DNA of 64,000 nucleotides from positions 1 to 64,000 of the forward strand of contig NZ_AULM01000020.1 of NCBI RefSeq assembly GCF_000422285.1, in the 5' to 3' direction. Position numbers and translations under genes: made by a program. The stretch is from Desulfatiglans anilini DSM 4660 (GTDB lineage: Bacteria > Desulfobacterota > DSM-4660 > Desulfatiglandales > Desulfatiglandaceae). The notes beneath the pieces were generated by a model that searched no databases, was not told the origin of the DNA, and saw only the letters and a list, made by a program, of their open reading frames with translations. This document shows, in pieces, positions 30,826-58,787 of this stretch (position 1 is its first letter; each line of letters opens with the position of its first letter).

Positions 30826-32559
30826 TCAGCCCTTGACAATCCTCGGGATCATCATGTGGTTCTGGGGGCAGATGGAGGTCGGGTTCTGGTAACAGCATCC
30901 GGCGAAGGCCGCGATGTATTTGCGCAGCAGCGGCAGGGAGACGATCTCGTCGACGAAGCCGCGTTTGGCGCAGTAGACCGGGCGGGATTTGTCGTAATAC
31001 TCCTTCACCAGGGCGTTCATCTTTTCGATGACCGGCTCGAGGGGCCGACCGCCGTCCTTTTCCTTGACGAGGCGCCGTGCGAACGACGCGGCTGCGGCCG
31101 TCTCACCGTGCATGACGTAGATCTCCGTCATGGGGGTGCCCAGGGTGAAGGCGTTGTGGTTGTTGGCCGTGGGGCCGCCCATGATGTAGTGCGCCGCCGC
31201 TGTGCCTTTGCGCAGGACAACGCAGATCATGGGAACGTCCGTCTGCTCGATGGAGTAGATGAGCGACTGCCCCAGGCCCAGCAGTTCGGCCTTTTCAGCG
31301 ATATCGCCCACGTCGATACCGGAGGTGTCCTGGAACCAGACGATTGGAACGCGGTCACGCCCGCACAGGGTCACGAACTCGTTCATCTTGATGAGACCCT
31401 GACGGTAGAGCTTGCCGCCGATGCCCATGTAATCCGCGTATTCCGGATACTTGGCGCCCAGGAACCCCTGGCGGTTGCCGATGAAGCCCACGAGGAACCC
31501 GTCGATTTTGGCAAGGCCCGTGTAGACCTCCGGACCGTAGCCCGGGCGGAACTCCATGTGCTCGCTGTTGTCGAAGATGCGTGAAAGGACTTCGTCGAAA
31601 TTGTAGCTTCGCTTTTGGTTGAAGGCGACGAGGTAATCGAGGTCTTCTCCGGGGAAACGGGGTTCCTTCGGCTCGGCGACCCGGAAGAAGGCCGGATCGT
31701 AGGCCGGCATCATGTCCATGTACTTCTTGAGGGCGTCCAGGACCCCCTGTTCGGTCTCGTACACTTCCTTGAAAAAGCCTGTTTCGTTGTGATGGATAGG
31801 CACGCTGCCCGGGGGCACTTCCTTGAAGTGCCGGGTGGCCTCGATCAACTGCTCGGCCCCTTCCATGTCGAAGTAGCCCTTCGGGCTCATGCCGCTGACG
31901 ATGCCGCCTCCGCCGACGGCGATGTTGGCGTCCTTGTGGGCGATCAACAGCGTCGGGCTGATGCCCTGGTAGCCGCCGCCCGCCGGGTTGGTTCCGTAGA
32001 TCCCGGCCAGGATGGGCACTCCCACCTTTTCGAGTTCGGCGTGGCGGAAAAAGGTCGTGCCGTTGCCGCGGCGATTGGCGTAGACCTCTTCCTGCTCGGG
32101 AAGCTTGACGCCGCTGCAGTTGACCAGCCACACCAAGGGCACATGCAGGCGTTTGGCCATGTCGGTGACCCGGAGCTGGTTGTCGGCCTGCCCGGCGATC
32201 CATGCCCCGGCCATGACCTTGTTGTCGAACCCGATCACGACAGCCCACTTGCCGTTGATCTTGGCCAGGCCGTCGATGACACCGGTGGTCCCCTCCTCGT
32301 TGAACAGGGGGTCGTACAGGGTGTGCAGCGGGCACCAGGTGCCGGGATCGATCAGGTATTCGATCCGTTCCCAGACGGTCATCTGCCCGCGCTTCTTGAT
32401 CTTTTCAGCCGGGATGCCCGCGTTTTTCACGGCCTCGATGGCCTCGGCCACCGTCTTCTCGACCTCGCGGATCTCCTTGACGTTCTGTTCCCCGGATTTC
32501 TTCTGTCCTTCGGTAAGCTCTTTACCGAAGGGTTCCATCTTCTCAAAATAGGGTCGCAT
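30826..32559 (-). CDS. gcdA: Glutaconyl-CoA decarboxylase alpha subunit (carboxyltransferase)
   Basis: 577 residues, matching the length and organisation of GcdA from Na+-pumping glutaconyl-CoA decarboxylase. It has two crotonase-fold halves, with VVIGFDNKVMAGAWIAGQA, LVNCSGVKLPEQEEVY, GIYGTNPAGGGYQGISPT and, in the second half, GIGGKLYRQGLIKMNEFVTLC and QDTSGIDVGDIAEKAELLG. It moves the carboxyl group of glutaconyl-CoA to biotin, giving crotonyl-CoA; in the full complex decarboxylation drives sodium export. The membrane beta subunit and the biotin carrier are not in this window. GGAGGA seven bases upstream fixes the start. It is 20 bases downstream of the dehydrogenase that should make its substrate. 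Confidence 0.88.
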   Translation of the reverse strand: MRPYFEKMEPFGKELTEGQKKSGEQNVKEIREVEKTVAEAIEAVKNAGIPAEKIKKRGQMTVWERIEYLIDPGTWCPLHTLYDPLFNEEGTTGVIDGLAKINGKWAVVIGFDNKVMAGAWIAGQADNQLRVTDMAKRLHVPLVWLVNCSGVKLPEQEEVYANRRGNGTTFFRHAELEKVGVPILAGIYGTNPAGGGYQGISPTLLIAHKDANIAVGGGGIVSGMSPKGYFDMEGAEQLIEATRHFKEVPPGSVPIHHNETGFFKEVYETEQGVLDALKKYMDMMPAYDPAFFRVAEPKEPRFPGEDLDYLVAFNQKRSYNFDEVLSRIFDNSEHMEFRPGYGPEVYTGLAKIDGFLVGFIGNRQGFLGAKYPEYADYMGIGGKLYRQGLIKMNEFVTLCGRDRVPIVWFQDTSGIDVGDIAEKAELLGLGQSLIYSIEQTDVPMICVVLRKGTAAAHYIMGGPTANNHNAFTLGTPMTEIYVMHGETAAAASFARRLVKEKDGGRPLEPVIEKMNALVKEYYDKSRPVYCAKRGFVDEIVSLPLLRKYIAAFAGCCYQNPTSICPQNHMMIPRIVKG

Positions 32560-32579
32560 GGTCTTCCTCCGTTTACGAT

Positions 32580-33743
32580 CTACCGGTTTGCCTTCCGGAT
32601 GCCGAGTTGATCGAGGGCCACGATCCACTTGCAGATGTTGGTGGACCCTTCGACGATCTGGTAGGTCGGGGCATCGCGGTAGTAGCGGGCCACGGGGTAT
32701 TCCGTGGAGTAGCCGTAGGCCCCGAGGATCTTCATGGCCACCTGGGAAGCCTTGACGGCCACTTCACCGGCGAGGTACTTGGCCTGGGCGACCTCGAGTG
32801 TGTTGTTCAGGTTTCCCTGATCCTTCTGCCACGCGGCCTTGTAGACCACGAGCCTTGCCGCTTCGATCTCGCAGGTGATCTGGGCGATGAGGTCCTGGTT
32901 CATCTGGAACTGGCCGATGGGCTGGCCGAACTGCTCACGCTCCGCGCAGTAGGCGGTTGCGGCGTCCAGACAGGCCTGCGCGACGCCGATGCCGCCGGCG
33001 GCCGCCGAGAGGCGGGTCTGGTTCAGGGATCCGAAGACGATCTTGGCGCCGTCCCCGGGCTTGCCGAGGATGTTTTCTTTCGGGACCTTCGTGTCTTCCA
33101 GGTAGATCTCTCCGGTCGGTGAGGAGCGCGATCCCATCTTGTCCAGGTTCGTCGTGTGGATCCCGTTGAAGTTCTTGGGTTCGATGACAAAGGCCGAAAG
33201 GCCCCGGCCCCGGGCTTCTTTATCCGTGTAGGCATAAAAGATCAGGGCATCGGCGACCGAGGTGTTGGAGATCCAGGTCTTGGATCCGTTGATGAGCCAG
33301 TGGTCGCCCTTGTCGGCAGCCGTCGACTTCATGTTCATGACGTCGGAGCCGGCATTCGGTTCGGTGATGCCGAAGCCGCCCATGTATTCAGCGCTGACGA
33401 GCTTCGGGATGTACTTCTTCTTCAGGTCTTCCGTACCGTAGCGAAAGATCGTGAAGGCGCACCCGAGGGTCTGCATGTTGATCTGAACCCTGAGGGAACT
33501 CGAGGCCCGGGCGATTTCCTCCGTCAGGATCATGGCGGCCAGCCAGCCCATTTCATTGCCGCCGTACTCCTCGGGGATGACGGTGCCGAAGAATCCGAGC
33601 TCGCCCATGGGCCTGACGGCTTCTTCGTAAGGGAAATAATGCTTTTCATCCCATTCGTCCGCAAACGGGGCGATCTTTTCGGCGGCAAAGTCGCGCGCCA
33701 TGTCACGCAGCATCTGTAGCTCTTCACTTAACTCAAATTCCAT
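32580..33743 (-). CDS. Glutaryl-CoA dehydrogenase-type acyl-CoA dehydrogenase
   Basis: 387 residues. Landmarks are FGITEPNAGSD, WISNTSVADALIFYAYTD, MGSRSSPTGEIYLEDTKVP and the catalytic Glu365 in YQIVEGSTNIC. Co-transcription with gcdA argues for glutaryl-CoA as substrate. In sulfate reducers such as Desulfococcus multivorans a non-decarboxylating glutaryl-CoA dehydrogenase makes glutaconyl-CoA, which GcdA then decarboxylates, conserving energy as a sodium gradient. That pairing is just what is seen here. Whether this copy decarboxylates cannot be read with certainty. GGAGGAG six bases upstream supports the chosen ATG. It is the first gene of the pair. Confidence 0.85.
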   Translation of the reverse strand: MEFELSEELQMLRDMARDFAAEKIAPFADEWDEKHYFPYEEAVRPMGELGFFGTVIPEEYGGNEMGWLAAMILTEEIARASSSLRVQINMQTLGCAFTIFRYGTEDLKKKYIPKLVSAEYMGGFGITEPNAGSDVMNMKSTAADKGDHWLINGSKTWISNTSVADALIFYAYTDKEARGRGLSAFVIEPKNFNGIHTTNLDKMGSRSSPTGEIYLEDTKVPKENILGKPGDGAKIVFGSLNQTRLSAAAGGIGVAQACLDAATAYCAEREQFGQPIGQFQMNQDLIAQITCEIEAARLVVYKAAWQKDQGNLNNTLEVAQAKYLAGEVAVKASQVAMKILGAYGYSTEYPVARYYRDAPTYQIVEGSTNICKWIVALDQLGIRKANR

Positions 33744-34209
33744 AAACATCTCCTCCTTTTTCATCCAGTTGGGGCAATCCCGCATGGCCACGCGCTGGCG
33801 TCAACGATCCGCCGATGTTTGTGCCCCATGATTGTTGATTCAACGGCTGCCAGGAAACTGGCCGCTTTTTGAACAGTATTCAAAAAATGCTATCTATAGA
33901 ACAATCTATTTGGAATAGCAACCGGTAAATTTACATTGTAGCTATTTTCCAGATGCGCATCCGGAAAGGGGTTTTCGGCCGGTATCGGCGCGCAGTCCAT
34001 GTGCCGCAGCGGCCTGCAGATCGCCCGTCAGGGTGCCGTCCCGCGGCGGATCGTGGAGACCTCGTGTCCATCCTGAAAGGATTTCCCTATACGACCTGGC
34101 TTCCAATCCGGAAGCGTAACCGGGACACCCGAATGGAGGGGCGTGCTCTTTGTTTTTTGACAAGTTCTGTCGAAAGTTTTAAAATAAAAAATTTCGAGTT
34201 TTGTAAATG

Positions 34210-35999: not shown

Positions 36000-36028
36000 T
36001 TGACTTTCAGCATCGAAGTGTTTACTAA
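36000..36028 (+). promoter_or_regulatory. Candidate promoter of the selenoprotein gene
   Basis: TTGACT (36000-36005) and TACTAA (36023-36028) are separated by 17 bases. Transcription would start near 36035, upstream of the intrinsic terminator that precedes the Fe-S protein gene. Confidence 0.4.
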
Positions 36029-36054
36029 TAAACAGCGGTTACTCGAAGCAAAAT

Positions 36055-36095
36055 CCCCCGGCGATCGAAAAAACCTTCGGGGGGTGTTTTTTTAT
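36055..36095 (+). terminator. Intrinsic terminator or attenuator before the selenoprotein gene
   Basis: CCCCCG (36055-36060) pairs with CGGGGG (36078-36083), followed by TGTTTTTTTAT. The gene's ribosome site starts only 11 bases after the T-run, so no promoter fits in between. Either it ends the thrC transcript, or it is a leader attenuator that transcripts must pass. Confidence 0.75.
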
Positions 36096-36118
36096 AAACG
36101 ATAACAGGAGGGTGATGA

Positions 36119-37420
36119 ATGGAGCCGATTGCTGTTAACCGTAAGGAGGGCAAACTCAGGGTCGCCCCCGAGTGGGCGGACGTTTGCTTTACCTGTGGGA
36201 CCTGCGCCGGCGGCTGCCCGGTGACCGGCGTCGACGGTATGGACCCCAGGAAAGCCGTGCGCATGGCCGCCCTCGGGCTGGATCAGGAGCTGATCGACTC
36301 GCGGTTTCCCTGGGTCTGCACGCTCTGCGGCCGCTGCGAATACGCCTGTCCGCAAGGGGTGGAGATCCTCAAGATGATGCGCCGCGCCCGGACCCTGCGC
36401 GCGAGGGACAAGGTCCCCGGTCCGATCCACAAGGGCGTCGTGATGGATCTGGAAAGGGGGAACAACCTGGGCATCCCGAAGGAGGATTTCCTCTTTCTGC
36501 TGGCGGATCTGGGGCGGGAAATGGACGAGGACGAGGGCTTCCCAGGGTTCTATGTCCCCGTGGACAAGAAGGGCGCCAACGTCTTCGTGACGATCAATTC
36601 GAAGGAGCCTTTCGGCGAACCGGATGACATGAAGTTCTGGTGGCGGATCTTCTATGCCGCCAAGGAGGACTGGACCACCGCCTCGACCGAGTGGGAAGGG
36701 GTCAACTGGGGCCTTTTCTCGGGTGACGACGAATCCATGAAGACACTGGTCGGGCGCATTGTCAACCACATGGAGAGATTGGAGTGCAAGACGCTCCTGT
36801 TGCCGGAATGAGGCCACGCCTACTATGCGACCAGGCTTGGTCTGCAAACGTGGTACCCTGAAGTCTTCGAAAAGTACAAGGTGGTTTCCGTCCACGATCT
36901 CCTGAAGGAATACATCGAAACGGGACGGATCAAACTCGACAAGTCGATCCATCACGAACTGACGACGATCCACGATCCCTGCAACTACGGCCGGAAGAGC
37001 CAGAAGGCCTTCGGGCACGGCTATTTCGAGGAGCCCCGCTGGATCACCCAGCAGTGCTGCGAGAACTTCGTCGAGATGCAGCCGAACCGGATGAACAATT
37101 TCTGCTGCGGAGCCGGCGGCGGCGCCTGGGCGATGCCCTACGAGAACGAGCGGATCTACTACGGCCGCGTCAAGGCGCAGCAGATCGGGGACACCGGGGC
37201 GGAGCTGGTGATCGCGCCGTGCCACAACTGCCGCGATCAGATCATGAAGTCCCTGACGAAGGAATACGATCTGGGGATCGAGACCAAGTACCTCTGGGAA
37301 CTGGTGGCCGATTCGCTGATCGTGGAGCCGTGGAGCGAAGAGGAGATCGAGCAGGCCCGGGCGCTCCGGGACGAGCAGTTCGAGCGCGACGGCATCGATC
37401 TCGAAGCGGAGATGTATTAG
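36119..37420 (+). CDS. Selenocysteine-containing HdrD-like Fe-S (CCG-domain) oxidoreductase subunit
   Basis: One frame of 433 residues with an in-frame TGA at codon 231 (36809-36811). The N-terminal part is a 2x[4Fe-4S] ferredoxin domain (C23, C26, C29, C33; C67, C70, C73, C77). The C-terminal part is a CCG domain (C288, C329-C330-G, C368-x2-C371) of the kind that binds the active cluster of heterodisulfide reductase HdrB/HdrD. The TGA sits in LLLPE-U-GHAYYATRLG, where HdrD-like proteins have a conserved Cys; the paralogue at 57-59 kb has Cys236 (TGC) there. Coding continues undisturbed for 203 codons. A hairpin lies 15 to 35 bases after the TGA, and selD and yedF are nearby. Likely role: electron transfer with a thiol/disulfide or flavin partner. 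AGGAGG lies seven bases upstream. If the TGA were a real stop, both halves would be useless. Confidence 0.85.
36826..36846 (+). promoter_or_regulatory. Candidate bacterial SECIS hairpin
   Basis: TGCGACCA and TGGTC-T-GCA pair with one bulged T and a GGCT loop whose first G is 23 bases after the TGA. Position and size fit bacterial SECIS elements that recruit SelB. The loop sequence is not the E. coli one, which is normal outside enterobacteria. Confidence 0.55.
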
Positions 37421-52901: not shown

Positions 52902-53916
52902 GGGGGTCGCCTGCCTGAAAGTGGTTCCAGCCTGATGCCGTAAAAGGGATGATCCGGCCTTCACGGGTTTCGATTTCGAGACGTCCGGAGCTGTTCATCC
53001 GGCCGATGGGGTAAAGGATGCGGCCGAAGAGGCGGCGGTATTCTTTCGCCAGATCCTCTGCCCTGGCGGGGTCCACGGTGCAGACGAGAACGTAGTCCTC
53101 GCCGCCTGCAAGGGCGAAGTCGACCGGGTCGAAGCCGAAGCGTTTGCAGAAGGCCGGAAGATGGTCCGAAAAAGGGATCTTCGCCGCCGAAAGCAGCACT
53201 CCGAGGCCGCTCGCCTCTGCAATATGACCGAGGTCCGAACTGAGTCCGTCGCTGACATCGATGGCCGCGTGCACGCCGCCGGCGCTTGCGAGGAACCTTC
53301 CCTCCCGGATATGAGGGCGCGGCCTCAGATGGGCCTCGATCAGGTCCCGGTCGACCGGCGATTCCGGAGCCGCCTCCTGCAGGATGAGGTGCAGCCCGGC
53401 GCGGCTGTCTCCGAGCGGGCCGGTGATGAAAACGATGTCGCCTGTCCTGGCGGTGTGGCGAAAGAGGATCTCCGCTTCCGGTACCTCTCCCGTCACGGCG
53501 ACGTTGATGACCAGATCCCGGCGCGAACCGGTGGTGTCACCCCCGAGGATATTGACGGAAAAGGCCTGGGCCAGGGATTTCATGCCGTCATAGAGGTGGT
53601 CGAGGTAGTTGAGCGGCACCTCTTCAGGGATGGCGATGCTTACGAAGGCTTCCCGCGGGGTTCCGCCCATCGCGGCGATGTCGCTCAAGTTGACGGCCAG
53701 AGATTTGTACCCGAGGTCGAAGCCGCTGATCCGGTCACGGATGAAGTGGACCCGTTCGACCAGCAGGTCGGTGGTCAGCAGGGTGATCCGCCCCTCCGCC
53801 GTTCGGAAGGCCGCCGCATCGTCGCCGATGCCCTTGAGGACTCCGTCCGGACGGACGAGGCACCCCTGAGTCACCCTGCGGATGAATCCGAACTCTCCGA
53901 TCTCTTTCAGCCCCAT
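52876..53916 (-). CDS. thiL: Thiamine-monophosphate kinase
   Basis: 346 residues with the PurM/ThiL fold: GIGDDAAAFR, LLTTDLLVERVHF, KSLAVNLSDIAAMGG, NILGGDTTGS, AIDVSDGLSSDLGHI and LAGGEDYVLV, each a metal- or ATP-binding loop of ThiL. It phosphorylates TMP to the cofactor TPP. It overlaps the end of thiE by ten bases and the start of thiD. Confidence 0.93.
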   Translation of the reverse strand: MGLKEIGEFGFIRRVTQGCLVRPDGVLKGIGDDAAAFRTAEGRITLLTTDLLVERVHFIRDRISGFDLGYKSLAVNLSDIAAMGGTPREAFVSIAIPEEVPLNYLDHLYDGMKSLAQAFSVNILGGDTTGSRRDLVINVAVTGEVPEAEILFRHTARTGDIVFITGPLGDSRAGLHLILQEAAPESPVDRDLIEAHLRPRPHIREGRFLASAGGVHAAIDVSDGLSSDLGHIAEASGLGVLLSAAKIPFSDHLPAFCKRFGFDPVDFALAGGEDYVLVCTVDPARAEDLAKEYRRLFGRILYPIGRMNSSGRLEIETREGRIIPFTASGWNHFQAGDPHGDHPGGF

Positions 53917-54557
53917 TGCGCCTTAGCCCTTTCGATCGCCGCCCGCAGTCGTCTGGCGGCCGCCTCGGGGTCTTCTGCGGATACGATGGCGGAGACGACC
54001 GCCAGGCCGCTCCCGCCGTGCCGGATGACCTCGGCGGCGTTTTCGAGGTTGAGACCCCCGATGCCGACCAGCGGCAGCCGCACAGCCGCCCGGATCGCCG
54101 CGAGCCCGCCGAGTCCGAGGGCGGGGGCGGTGTCCGTCTTGGTCGGGGTGGTGAAGATAGGGCTTACCCCGATGTAATCCGCGCCCTCCGCCTCCGCCCG
54201 AAGGGCGTCGTCCAGGCTTTCCGCGGAGATTCCGATGAGAGCCTTATCCCCGAGGATCGCTCTTGCCTGAGGAAGCGGCATGTCGGTCTGACCGAGGTGA
54301 ACCCCGTCGGCCTCGACGGCCAGAGCCACATCCACGCGGTCGTTGATGATGAGGGGGATGCCGTGTTCATGCAGGAGGCTGCGCAGACCGAGCGCCTCCT
54401 CGATGAAGGTGCGGGTGGAGCACGTTTTCTCCCTCAGTTGCACGCAGGTCACTCCCCCTCTGACGGCGGCCTCCACTATGGCACGCGTCGGGCGTCCGCG
54501 GGCGAGGCTGCGGTCCGTGACGAGGTATAAGGAATAATCGATCTGTTTGATCTGCAT
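53907..54557 (-). CDS. thiE: Thiamine-phosphate synthase
   Basis: 216 residues from MQIKQIDYS. YLVTDRSLARG, VQLREKTCSTRTFIEEA, LIINDRVDVALAVEADGVHLGQTDMPL, YIGVSPIFTTPTKTD, and GIGGLNLENAAEVI form the TIM-barrel active site (QLRxK, NDR, GQxD, G-I-G-G). It couples HMP-PP with thiazole phosphate to give TMP. The frame is open 33 codons further upstream without family similarity. Confidence 0.93.
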   Translation of the reverse strand: MQIKQIDYSLYLVTDRSLARGRPTRAIVEAAVRGGVTCVQLREKTCSTRTFIEEALGLRSLLHEHGIPLIINDRVDVALAVEADGVHLGQTDMPLPQARAILGDKALIGISAESLDDALRAEAEGADYIGVSPIFTTPTKTDTAPALGLGGLAAIRAAVRLPLVGIGGLNLENAAEVIRHGGSGLAVVSAIVSAEDPEAAARRLRAAIERAKAQWG

Positions 54558-54705
54558 GGGGTCATCTCTTGGCTCGAAGGCCGGCGGTACGGGTTTACGC
54601 GGTTCGTAGGGTTCGGAACCGGCCGCCGCCCGCCGAGCGGGCCTCCCGGAATGCATGCCGCAATGAAACGAGTCTATGTCAAAGGAAATCCCTTTTGACC
54701 CTCTG

Positions 54706-55575: not shown

Positions 55576-55605
55576 CTCCTGGTCCATTCAAATGAATGGA
55601 ACCTT

Positions 55606-55684
55606 CCTTCTTATCCCTACGCTGGCATGACCCAGATCAGGTTCAACGGGTATAATCTCAGGCCTTTAAGGCCACCCCGAAATC
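55606..55684 (-). ncRNA. TPP (THI-box) riboswitch
   Basis: On the minus strand the aptamer core is clear: GGGGTGGCC, GGCCTGAGATTATACCC, TTGAACCTGATCTGGGTCAT and GCCAGCGTAGGGATAAG, the two conserved THI-box arms (CUGAGA and ACCUGAUCUGG...GCCAGCGUAGGGA). It senses thiamine pyrophosphate and controls thiM-thiE-thiL-thiD. Confidence 0.95.
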
Positions 55685-55929
55685 TGATTTTTCACAATTT
55701 ATCCTTCATTTTAAAGAGGCGATACCGGGCTGTCAAGAGGGAGGTTCGATGCGGCATTGAAAAACCAATTGTGCTGAGCCATGCTATGTGGGAGGGATAT
55801 ACTCCGGCAGGGGATCCGGGTCTAGGTCCAGCCGTGGCAAAGGGCAGAAACCCTGCCCGTGGAACTCCACGGGACCCTGGTATTCCCCGCCGGGGCGATG
55901 CGGTGCCAGAGCAGAAAGAGGCCGAAGGG

Positions 55930-57464: not shown

Positions 57465-58787
57465 CTACCATTCCTGGTCGAGGTCGACGCCCAGCCGCTC
57501 CCATTGGGCGGCGCCCTCGGCTTCGCCCCGGGCGACCTCTTCTTCGGTCCAGGGGTCCAGTACGAGGCTGTCGGCGACCAGTTCCCAGATGTATTTCACC
57601 TCATACTTGTAGTCCGGGTAGAACTTGGGGATGCGCTTCATCATCTGGTCGTGGCAGTTGGAACAGCCGACGACCACCACGTGGGCGCCGGAGTTCTTGA
57701 TCTGGTTGTATTTCATGCGGCCGTGCCAGGCGGCTTCCTCTTCGTAGGGTCCGGGCCACATCCCGCCGCCGGCGCCGCAGCAGAAGTTGTTCGCGCGGCC
57801 CGGCTCCATTTCGACGAACTCGTCCACGCACTGCTGGATGATCCAGCGCGGTTCGTCATAGTAACCCTTGCCGAAGTGCCGTTCGAGTTCACGGCCATGT
57901 TTGCAGGAGTCGTGCCAGGTGAAGATCTTGCCGGCGTTCACGCTCTTGTCGATCTTGATGCGGCCGGTCTCGATGAGCTCCTTCAGGTAATCGTAGAGGT
58001 AGATGTAATTGATCTCGTTGTCGGGGTTTTCGTGGACGCACATCTTCATGCCTTCACGGCAGCCGTACGATCCGCCTCCGCAGTCAGGCATGATCATGCG
58101 CTTGATCCGATGTTTTTTCACGAAGTCGATCTTCCGGCGCGCCAGTTCCTTGATGGCATCATAGTTGCCGGTAAAGAGCCCCCAGTCGACCGACTCCCAG
58201 TTTTCCGAAGGGACCGTCCAGTTTTCTTTTGCGGCATAGAAGATTTTCCACCACCATTTCATGTCCTCGTTGTCCGCGAAGACCTCTTTGGAGTTGGGGA
58301 AGAAGAGGATGTCGGCGTCGTCCTTGTCGACGGGGACGTAGAAGCCCGGCAATTCCTCCTCGGCCAGCTCGTTGCCAAGGTCCGAGAGCAGGAAGAAATA
58401 GTCTGTCTGGGGAATGGCCATGTTGTTGCCGGTGCTCAGGGCGTTGGCTGCGCCTTTGTGGAGGATTCCGGGGACTTCGTCACGGGGCCGCAGATGCTTC
58501 ATGTGCAGCATGATCCACGGGATGTCGATGCCCATCGGGCAGGCGTAGGCGCAGCGGCCGCAGCCGGTGCAGAGCCAGGGGAACTTCGAATTCACCACCT
58601 CGTCCAGCATGCCTAAGACCAGCATGCGCAGAACCTTGCGGGTATCCCATCCCTCCATTCCGGGGGTTCCCGTGATGGGGCACCCATTGGTGCAGGTGCC
58701 GCAGGTCATGCAGGCGTTGAGATCGAATTTGGATAAATGGTCCTGAACGTCCTTGGGTAGTCTTTTCGGGCTGAGAGCCTCTGTCAT
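57465..58787 (-). CDS. HdrD-like Fe-S (CCG-domain) oxidoreductase subunit
   Basis: 440 residues, a close paralogue of the selenoprotein at 36-37 kb and aligned with it end to end. The ferredoxin part has C26, C29, C32, C36 and C73, C76, C79, C83. The middle part keeps Cys236 (MPDCGGGS, codon TGC) where the other has Sec. The C-terminal CCG domain shows DSCKHGR, NNFCCGAGGG and CSNCHDQ. It probably forms part of a cytoplasmic or membrane-associated electron-transfer complex (thiol/disulfide, ETF or menaquinone linked); no partner genes are adjacent. Being complete and TGA-free, it is the best internal control for the Sec reading. Confidence 0.88.
   Translation of the reverse strand: MTEALSPKRLPKDVQDHLSKFDLNACMTCGTCTNGCPITGTPGMEGWDTRKVLRMLVLGMLDEVVNSKFPWLCTGCGRCAYACPMGIDIPWIMLHMKHLRPRDEVPGILHKGAANALSTGNNMAIPQTDYFFLLSDLGNELAEEELPGFYVPVDKDDADILFFPNSKEVFADNEDMKWWWKIFYAAKENWTVPSENWESVDWGLFTGNYDAIKELARRKIDFVKKHRIKRMIMPDCGGGSYGCREGMKMCVHENPDNEINYIYLYDYLKELIETGRIKIDKSVNAGKIFTWHDSCKHGRELERHFGKGYYDEPRWIIQQCVDEFVEMEPGRANNFCCGAGGGMWPGPYEEEAAWHGRMKYNQIKNSGAHVVVVGCSNCHDQMMKRIPKFYPDYKYEVKYIWELVADSLVLDPWTEEEVARGEAEGAAQWERLGVDLDQEW

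Follow-up and report, generated by a model that had tools for sequence, protein, structure and literature searches.

Iron-sulfur (Fe-S) oxidoreductases that carry selenocysteine (Sec, U in motifs) within a UGH motif have been described before (PMC13188914; PMC1794560). A review from 2026 includes among its selenoproteins an Fe-S oxidoreductase-like protein (GlpC, COG0247, PTHR43551) that has this motif and is encoded in an operon with HdrA, FrhA and FrhD (PMC13188914). In addition, two proteins of Desulfobacterium autotrophicum HRM2, HdrD4 and HdrF2, are described as selenoproteins in the genome paper of that organism (PMC2702500). Here we analyzed a gene interrupted by an in-frame TGA on a 64,000-nucleotide stretch of the sulfate-reducer-type bacterium Desulfatiglans anilini DSM 4660 (contig NZ_AULM01000020.1, positions 1 to 64,000; hereafter the window) which, taking the identity of the protein and the placement of Sec together, is very probably one intact selenoprotein gene with Sec at the site of a CCG domain. 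The protein belongs to a large, nearly Sec-only subfamily of a known, biochemically unstudied selenoprotein group and is not a new type. The initial annotation, made from the DNA letters alone, had itself noted that Sec-bearing Fe-S oxidoreductases were on record, but the novelty it suggested was overstated in view of the same-motif UGH oxidoreductases and the Sec-containing HdrD of these three papers. What is added here is the extent of the subfamily, its near-exclusive use of Sec, the evidence for a selenocysteine insertion sequence (SECIS) and the assignment of Sec231 to the corresponding site of EtfD, HdrB and DsrK; as this kind of selenoprotein is already catalogued, the gain lies in clear limits for the subfamily and in an active-site model that can be tested.

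The GlpC-type UGH selenoproteins are the same kind of protein with the same UGH motif (PEUGHA in the window protein), likewise occur in Deltaproteobacteria and have both Sec and Cys homologues. However, a UGH protein found at locus L167, followed there by an HdrA-like gene, is only ~37–38% identical to the window protein, and the members of the window subfamily (53–99% identical) have neighbours other than this HdrA-like gene. HdrD4 of D. autotrophicum HRM2, a soluble HdrC+HdrB fusion without a membrane part that is reported to have Sec, resembles the window protein by its description. DsrK of the DsrMKJOP complex, HmcF and TmcB have the same architecture as the window protein, which nevertheless scored under their NCBIfam cut-offs (164 against 400 bits for DsrK, NF045796; 211 against 750 for HmcF, NF045711; 188 against 735 for TmcB, NF045724); since these scores are far below the cut-offs, the window protein is, as judged by these profiles, none of the three equivalogs.

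The coordinates of the gene and of its parts are collected in Table 1. Translation gave a frame of 433 residues ending with TAG, whose sole internal stop is the TGA of codon 231, in the context PEUGHAY; the coordinates and numbers given for this frame in the initial annotation are correct. The 202 codons 3′ of the TGA would have a chance of about 5e-4 of staying open at the local GC content. Searching 84,980 species genomes yielded 80 best loci, 53–89% identical to the window protein, and all 80 carry TGA at the aligned codon followed by the codons for GH. Among 46 genomes of the same family, an orthologue 81–99% identical was present in most of the fuller ones, and the in-frame TGA was present in each copy read that extends across codon 231; a class-level search added further orthologues with TGA at this codon. 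The gene is also carried by the culturable relative delta proteobacterium NaphS2 (L076). A sequencing error at the TGA, which would have undone the initial reading, is excluded because dozens of independent assemblies have the same triplet, as does a single-contig genome of the same genus (99% identical). The median ratio of nonsynonymous to synonymous substitution rates (dN/dS), computed for the window gene against 28 close orthologues, was 0.032 before and 0.056 after the TGA, and by this comparison the part 3′ of the TGA is under purifying selection.

Directly downstream of the TGA lies a hairpin (GCGACCA-GGCT-TGGTCTGC) with its loop ~22 bases 3′ of the TGA, which the initial annotation had matched to a bacterial SECIS. 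When the window sequence was folded by itself, the hairpin was mildly better than shuffled sequences at most, with z between about -0.2 and -1.9 depending on the stretch folded, and because such single-sequence folding is not decisive, a comparative test was needed. In 71 distinct sequences we found compensatory changes: in 11 of them C-G at columns 24/31 had become U-A, and in 10 G-C at columns 21/34 had become A-U. Double-changed cells numbered 27 compared with 6.7 expected from shuffles, a value reached in 0 of 500 shuffles, and most of the covariation signal was gone when the partner was shifted by one to three columns. Of the two changes, the one from C-G to U-A joins a silent substitution in a Thr codon to a replacement of Gly by Ser, a combination not easily accounted for unless selection acts on the RNA. 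Pairing in a fixed structure falls to 87% owing to a clade with AACCC...GGGTT, in which the stem pairs one base further along and is again complementary, so that there are two registers, each of them paired, and no single structure fits all relatives. Against alternative synonymous codings of this peptide, folding gave a mean z of -2.3, with p < 0.05 in 65 of 81 sequences. Furthermore, the eight 9-codon windows of lowest synonymous entropy, out of 414 in the gene, all lie on or beside the hairpin, and the GG of the loop is invariant. An Rfam scan of the window returned no SECIS family. Taken together, the compensatory changes and the synonymous variation, the lowest in the gene, make a convincing comparative case for a bacterial-SECIS-type element.

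The genome also encodes the decoding machinery on which the initial annotation had made its reading depend: SelA (627 bits), SelB (387 bits) and the selC product tRNA-Sec (71.7 bits), with anticodon UCA. Decoding of UGA231 as Sec is strongly supported at the level of sequence. Other genes with in-frame TGA in the same genome, as one would expect in an organism that uses Sec, are those for FdhA (two above the cut-off) and FlpD (four genes of MvhD type, on contigs C2, C30, C17 and C74). A reassignment of TGA was considered and rejected, as TGA terminates several neighbouring genes of the window.

Comparison of the codon-231 column in 129 relatives, down to ~30% identity, gave Sec in 101, Cys in 28 and another residue in none, in agreement with the initial annotation, whose reading homologues without Cys at this column would have refuted. 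On a tree of 105 rows 10 Sec/Cys exchanges are required, at least eight of them forced by strongly supported branches. All 101 Sec forms have UGH, and the Cys forms have CGH (16), CGG (9), CGT (2) or CAH (1), counts that describe a pattern among related sequences and are not independent of each other. The in-window Cys paralogue to which the initial annotation had compared the gene is indeed free of TGA and shares ~50% identity with the window protein upstream as well as downstream of codon 231 (residues 21–431), with TGC for Cys236 at 58080–58082 in place of the Sec codon. The hairpin is lost in the Cys forms L153–L156 (52–65% identity); a SECIS-type stem of 6 bp persists in the Cys form L178 (TGT; minus strand, match from 3032), likely a fossil SECIS after a recent loss of Sec. 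Cys also fills the Sec column in L122, a DsrK whose score of 682.7 bits exceeds the curated cut-off. HmcF/TmcB-like proteins with UGH were also seen (L106, 3307–4479; L111, 4599–5771; L180, L181 and L182), i.e., by their sequences, putative Sec versions of HmcF-type proteins; L180 scored ~431 bits to HmcF, under the HmcF cut-off.

Pfam placed a Fer4_8 dicluster domain and a CCG domain above their cut-offs, and together with the matches to HdrC, HdrB and EtfD this gives the HdrD-like layout of two ferredoxin-type clusters followed by CCG domains. The eight Cys of the HdrC-like half are predicted to hold two cubane [4Fe-4S] clusters, and the second CCG domain (CCG2) is predicted to be a non-cubane [4Fe-4S] site. 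Two complete CCG cluster sites were not found, the first CCG domain keeping residue 231 only, which is as invariant as the CCG2 ligands. A structural model built from 37 window and locus sequences (mean predicted local distance difference test score 90.8, predicted template modelling score 0.90) found as its best match EtfD of Mycobacterium smegmatis (PDB 9ojn; Z 26.6 over 382 residues), with which it shares the ferredoxin half and two CCG domains, followed by HdrB (Z ~20). Racemase folds also appeared in this search (Z 6–7) and were interpreted as nothing more than a common arrangement of the fold.

In EtfD, His583 and Cys637, 672, 673, 709 and 712 hold a non-cubane [4Fe-4S] cluster, and Cys581 and Cys584 help to hold a linear [3Fe-4S] cluster (PMC13083937). 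Profile alignment set Sec231 against Cys581, His233 against His583 and Cys288, 329, 330, 368 and 371 against the five other non-cubane ligands in the order given, the UGHA of the window protein standing opposite the CPHC of EtfD. Alignment and model thus agree with the earlier placement of Sec in the degenerate first half of the CCG module. EtfD differs by its heme-containing membrane part and by this second, linear cluster; the window protein has one intact CCG ligand set and no membrane part that we could see. As the first CCG domain has no conserved Cys/Sec apart from residue 231, an EtfD-like second cluster cannot form here in the same way.

From the sequence evidence, we propose that UGA231 would be read as Sec by SelB and tRNA-Sec under the direction of the adjacent hairpin, to yield a soluble protein of 433 residues with two predicted [4Fe-4S] clusters in its HdrC-like half and the full ligand set, in its HdrB-like half, in CCG2 only. 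Electrons may then pass between a flavin-based partner, the two cubane clusters and the non-cubane cluster of CCG2; by lineage, the partner would be HdrA/FlpD, an NAD(P)H/flavin adenine dinucleotide (FAD) module or the electron carrier of an acyl-CoA dehydrogenase. Sec231 and His233 would occupy the place that the second catalytic cluster has in HdrB; His233, like His583 in EtfD, could serve as a ligand of the non-cubane cluster, and Sec231 could be a redox-active selenolate beside this cluster or an exchangeable ligand that binds it in some states, acting on a disulfide/thiol substrate or tuning the cluster. Sec231 is most likely a redox-active selenol beside the non-cubane cluster or a ligand of it, and the catalytic role itself appears to us evenly balanced. 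More tentative, and rather below an even chance, is the proposal that Sec231 and His233 replace the HdrB-type second catalytic cluster, giving a one-cluster-plus-selenolate site or a selenolate-ligated non-cubane cluster that would be nearly obligate in a widespread Desulfobacterota subfamily. Several observations weigh against this scheme: the distance from Sec231 to the cluster comes from an alignment at 18–20% identity to EtfD and from the secondary structure of the model; a ~50%-identical Cys clade lacks His233, so that His ligation of the EtfD type cannot hold for every member; and the neighbourhoods vary by lineage and the window gene appears monocistronic.

The alternative that survives best is that Sec231 is not a free selenol and directly ligates an iron of the non-cubane cluster, which would make a natural selenolate-ligated Fe-S cluster. 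Sec231 aligns with a cluster ligand, EtfD Cys581, equals the CCG2 ligands in invariance and is accompanied by no other conserved Cys/Sec in the first CCG domain; the Cys clade without His233 would, moreover, require a different sixth ligand. On the other hand, Cys581 serves the linear cluster of EtfD, whose remaining ligands are missing here, and His233 is present in all Sec forms and able to fill the sixth position, so that we regard direct ligation as possible but somewhat doubtful. The several exchanges on the tree could also mean that Sec replaces Cys neutrally, by drift between equivalent residues; this seems unlikely, given that all 80 best matches of the window subfamily have Sec despite the cost of its insertion and that Sec is confined to the UGH context. 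It is highly improbable that the locus makes two proteins, with a stop at codon 231 and a restart downstream: in-frame ATG or GTG codons do follow in some loci, but the commonest restart position is common to only 18 of the 80, a Shine-Dalgarno-like stretch precedes a start in nine, and the uninterrupted relatives have Cys at the TGA column. Finally, the reading as a pseudogene or an error, with the TGA a true stop and the rest a relic, has the in-frame stop in its favour and is refuted by the independent assemblies and the selection downstream, besides the TGA in all 80 loci, the SECIS covariation and the selA, selB and tRNA-Sec genes, which make it the least probable of all.

Read as an intact selenoprotein gene, the locus suggests that apparently broken genes in many anaerobes are intact selenoproteins of energy metabolism. 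It also marks the column of DsrK/HmcF/HdrD-type proteins for Cys-for-Sec swaps, which could reveal the role of the degenerate first CCG domain beside the non-cubane cluster.

Table 1. Features of the selenoprotein locus and of the window (window coordinates).
Feature	Position	Strand	Remark
Acyl-CoA dehydrogenase (glutaryl-CoA dehydrogenase type) and carboxyltransferase genes	30826..33791	-	Divergent neighbours, in close relatives too
Promoter-like TTGACT stretch	36000..36039	+	Resemblance only
Shine-Dalgarno-like AGGAGGG, 5′ of ATG 36119	36104..36110	+	Sequence
Probable selenoprotein gene, soluble HdrC-HdrB fusion of DsrK/HmcF/TmcB type	36119..37420	+	433 aa with Sec231
HdrC-like ferredoxin half	36185..36351	+	Eight invariant Cys: 23, 26, 29, 33, 67, 70, 73, 77
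Degenerate first CCG domain	36575..36820	+	Sec231 its sole conserved Cys/Sec
TGA, predicted Sec codon 231, motif UGH	36809..36811	+	Codon comparison across relatives
Putative bacterial SECIS-type hairpin, loop GGCU, bulged U, directly 3′ of Sec codon	36827..36845	+	Comparative evidence
Intact second CCG domain (CCG2)	36965..37243	+	Cys288, 329, 330, 368, 371
Cys paralogue, TGC, Cys236	57465..58787	-	440 aa; comparison gene of the initial annotation

In the window, a threonine-synthase-like (thrC-like) gene lies between the acyl-CoA dehydrogenase/carboxyltransferase pair and the selenoprotein gene, and these neighbours do not reproduce the reported hdrA, frhD, frhG, frhA operon context, which is not a strict definition of the group. 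Neighbours in the 80 loci included HdrC-HdrB (4), FAD/NAD or Fe-S modules (at most 10), FlpD (8) and acyl-CoA dehydrogenase (15); no genes of the Dsr, Hmc or Tmc complexes were recognised among the neighbours scanned. The lineage-dependent neighbours suggest flavin-based electron transfer tied to Hdr or to acyl-CoA metabolism. A scan for promoter and terminator consensus gave nothing useful for the selenoprotein gene; many close orthologues have, by resemblance only, similar TTGAC...TAAA stretches upstream. Between the promoter-like stretch and the ribosome-binding site, a GC-rich terminator-like hairpin followed by a T run (36053–36096) was seen in the window and in the genome of the same genus, and by eye in none of the other orthologue leaders inspected; its folding z was unremarkable, and it is possibly an attenuator. 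Elsewhere in the window, Rfam identified a thiamine pyrophosphate (TPP) riboswitch at 55596–55689 on the minus strand, with a thiamine monophosphate synthase gene at 53907–54653 on the same strand.
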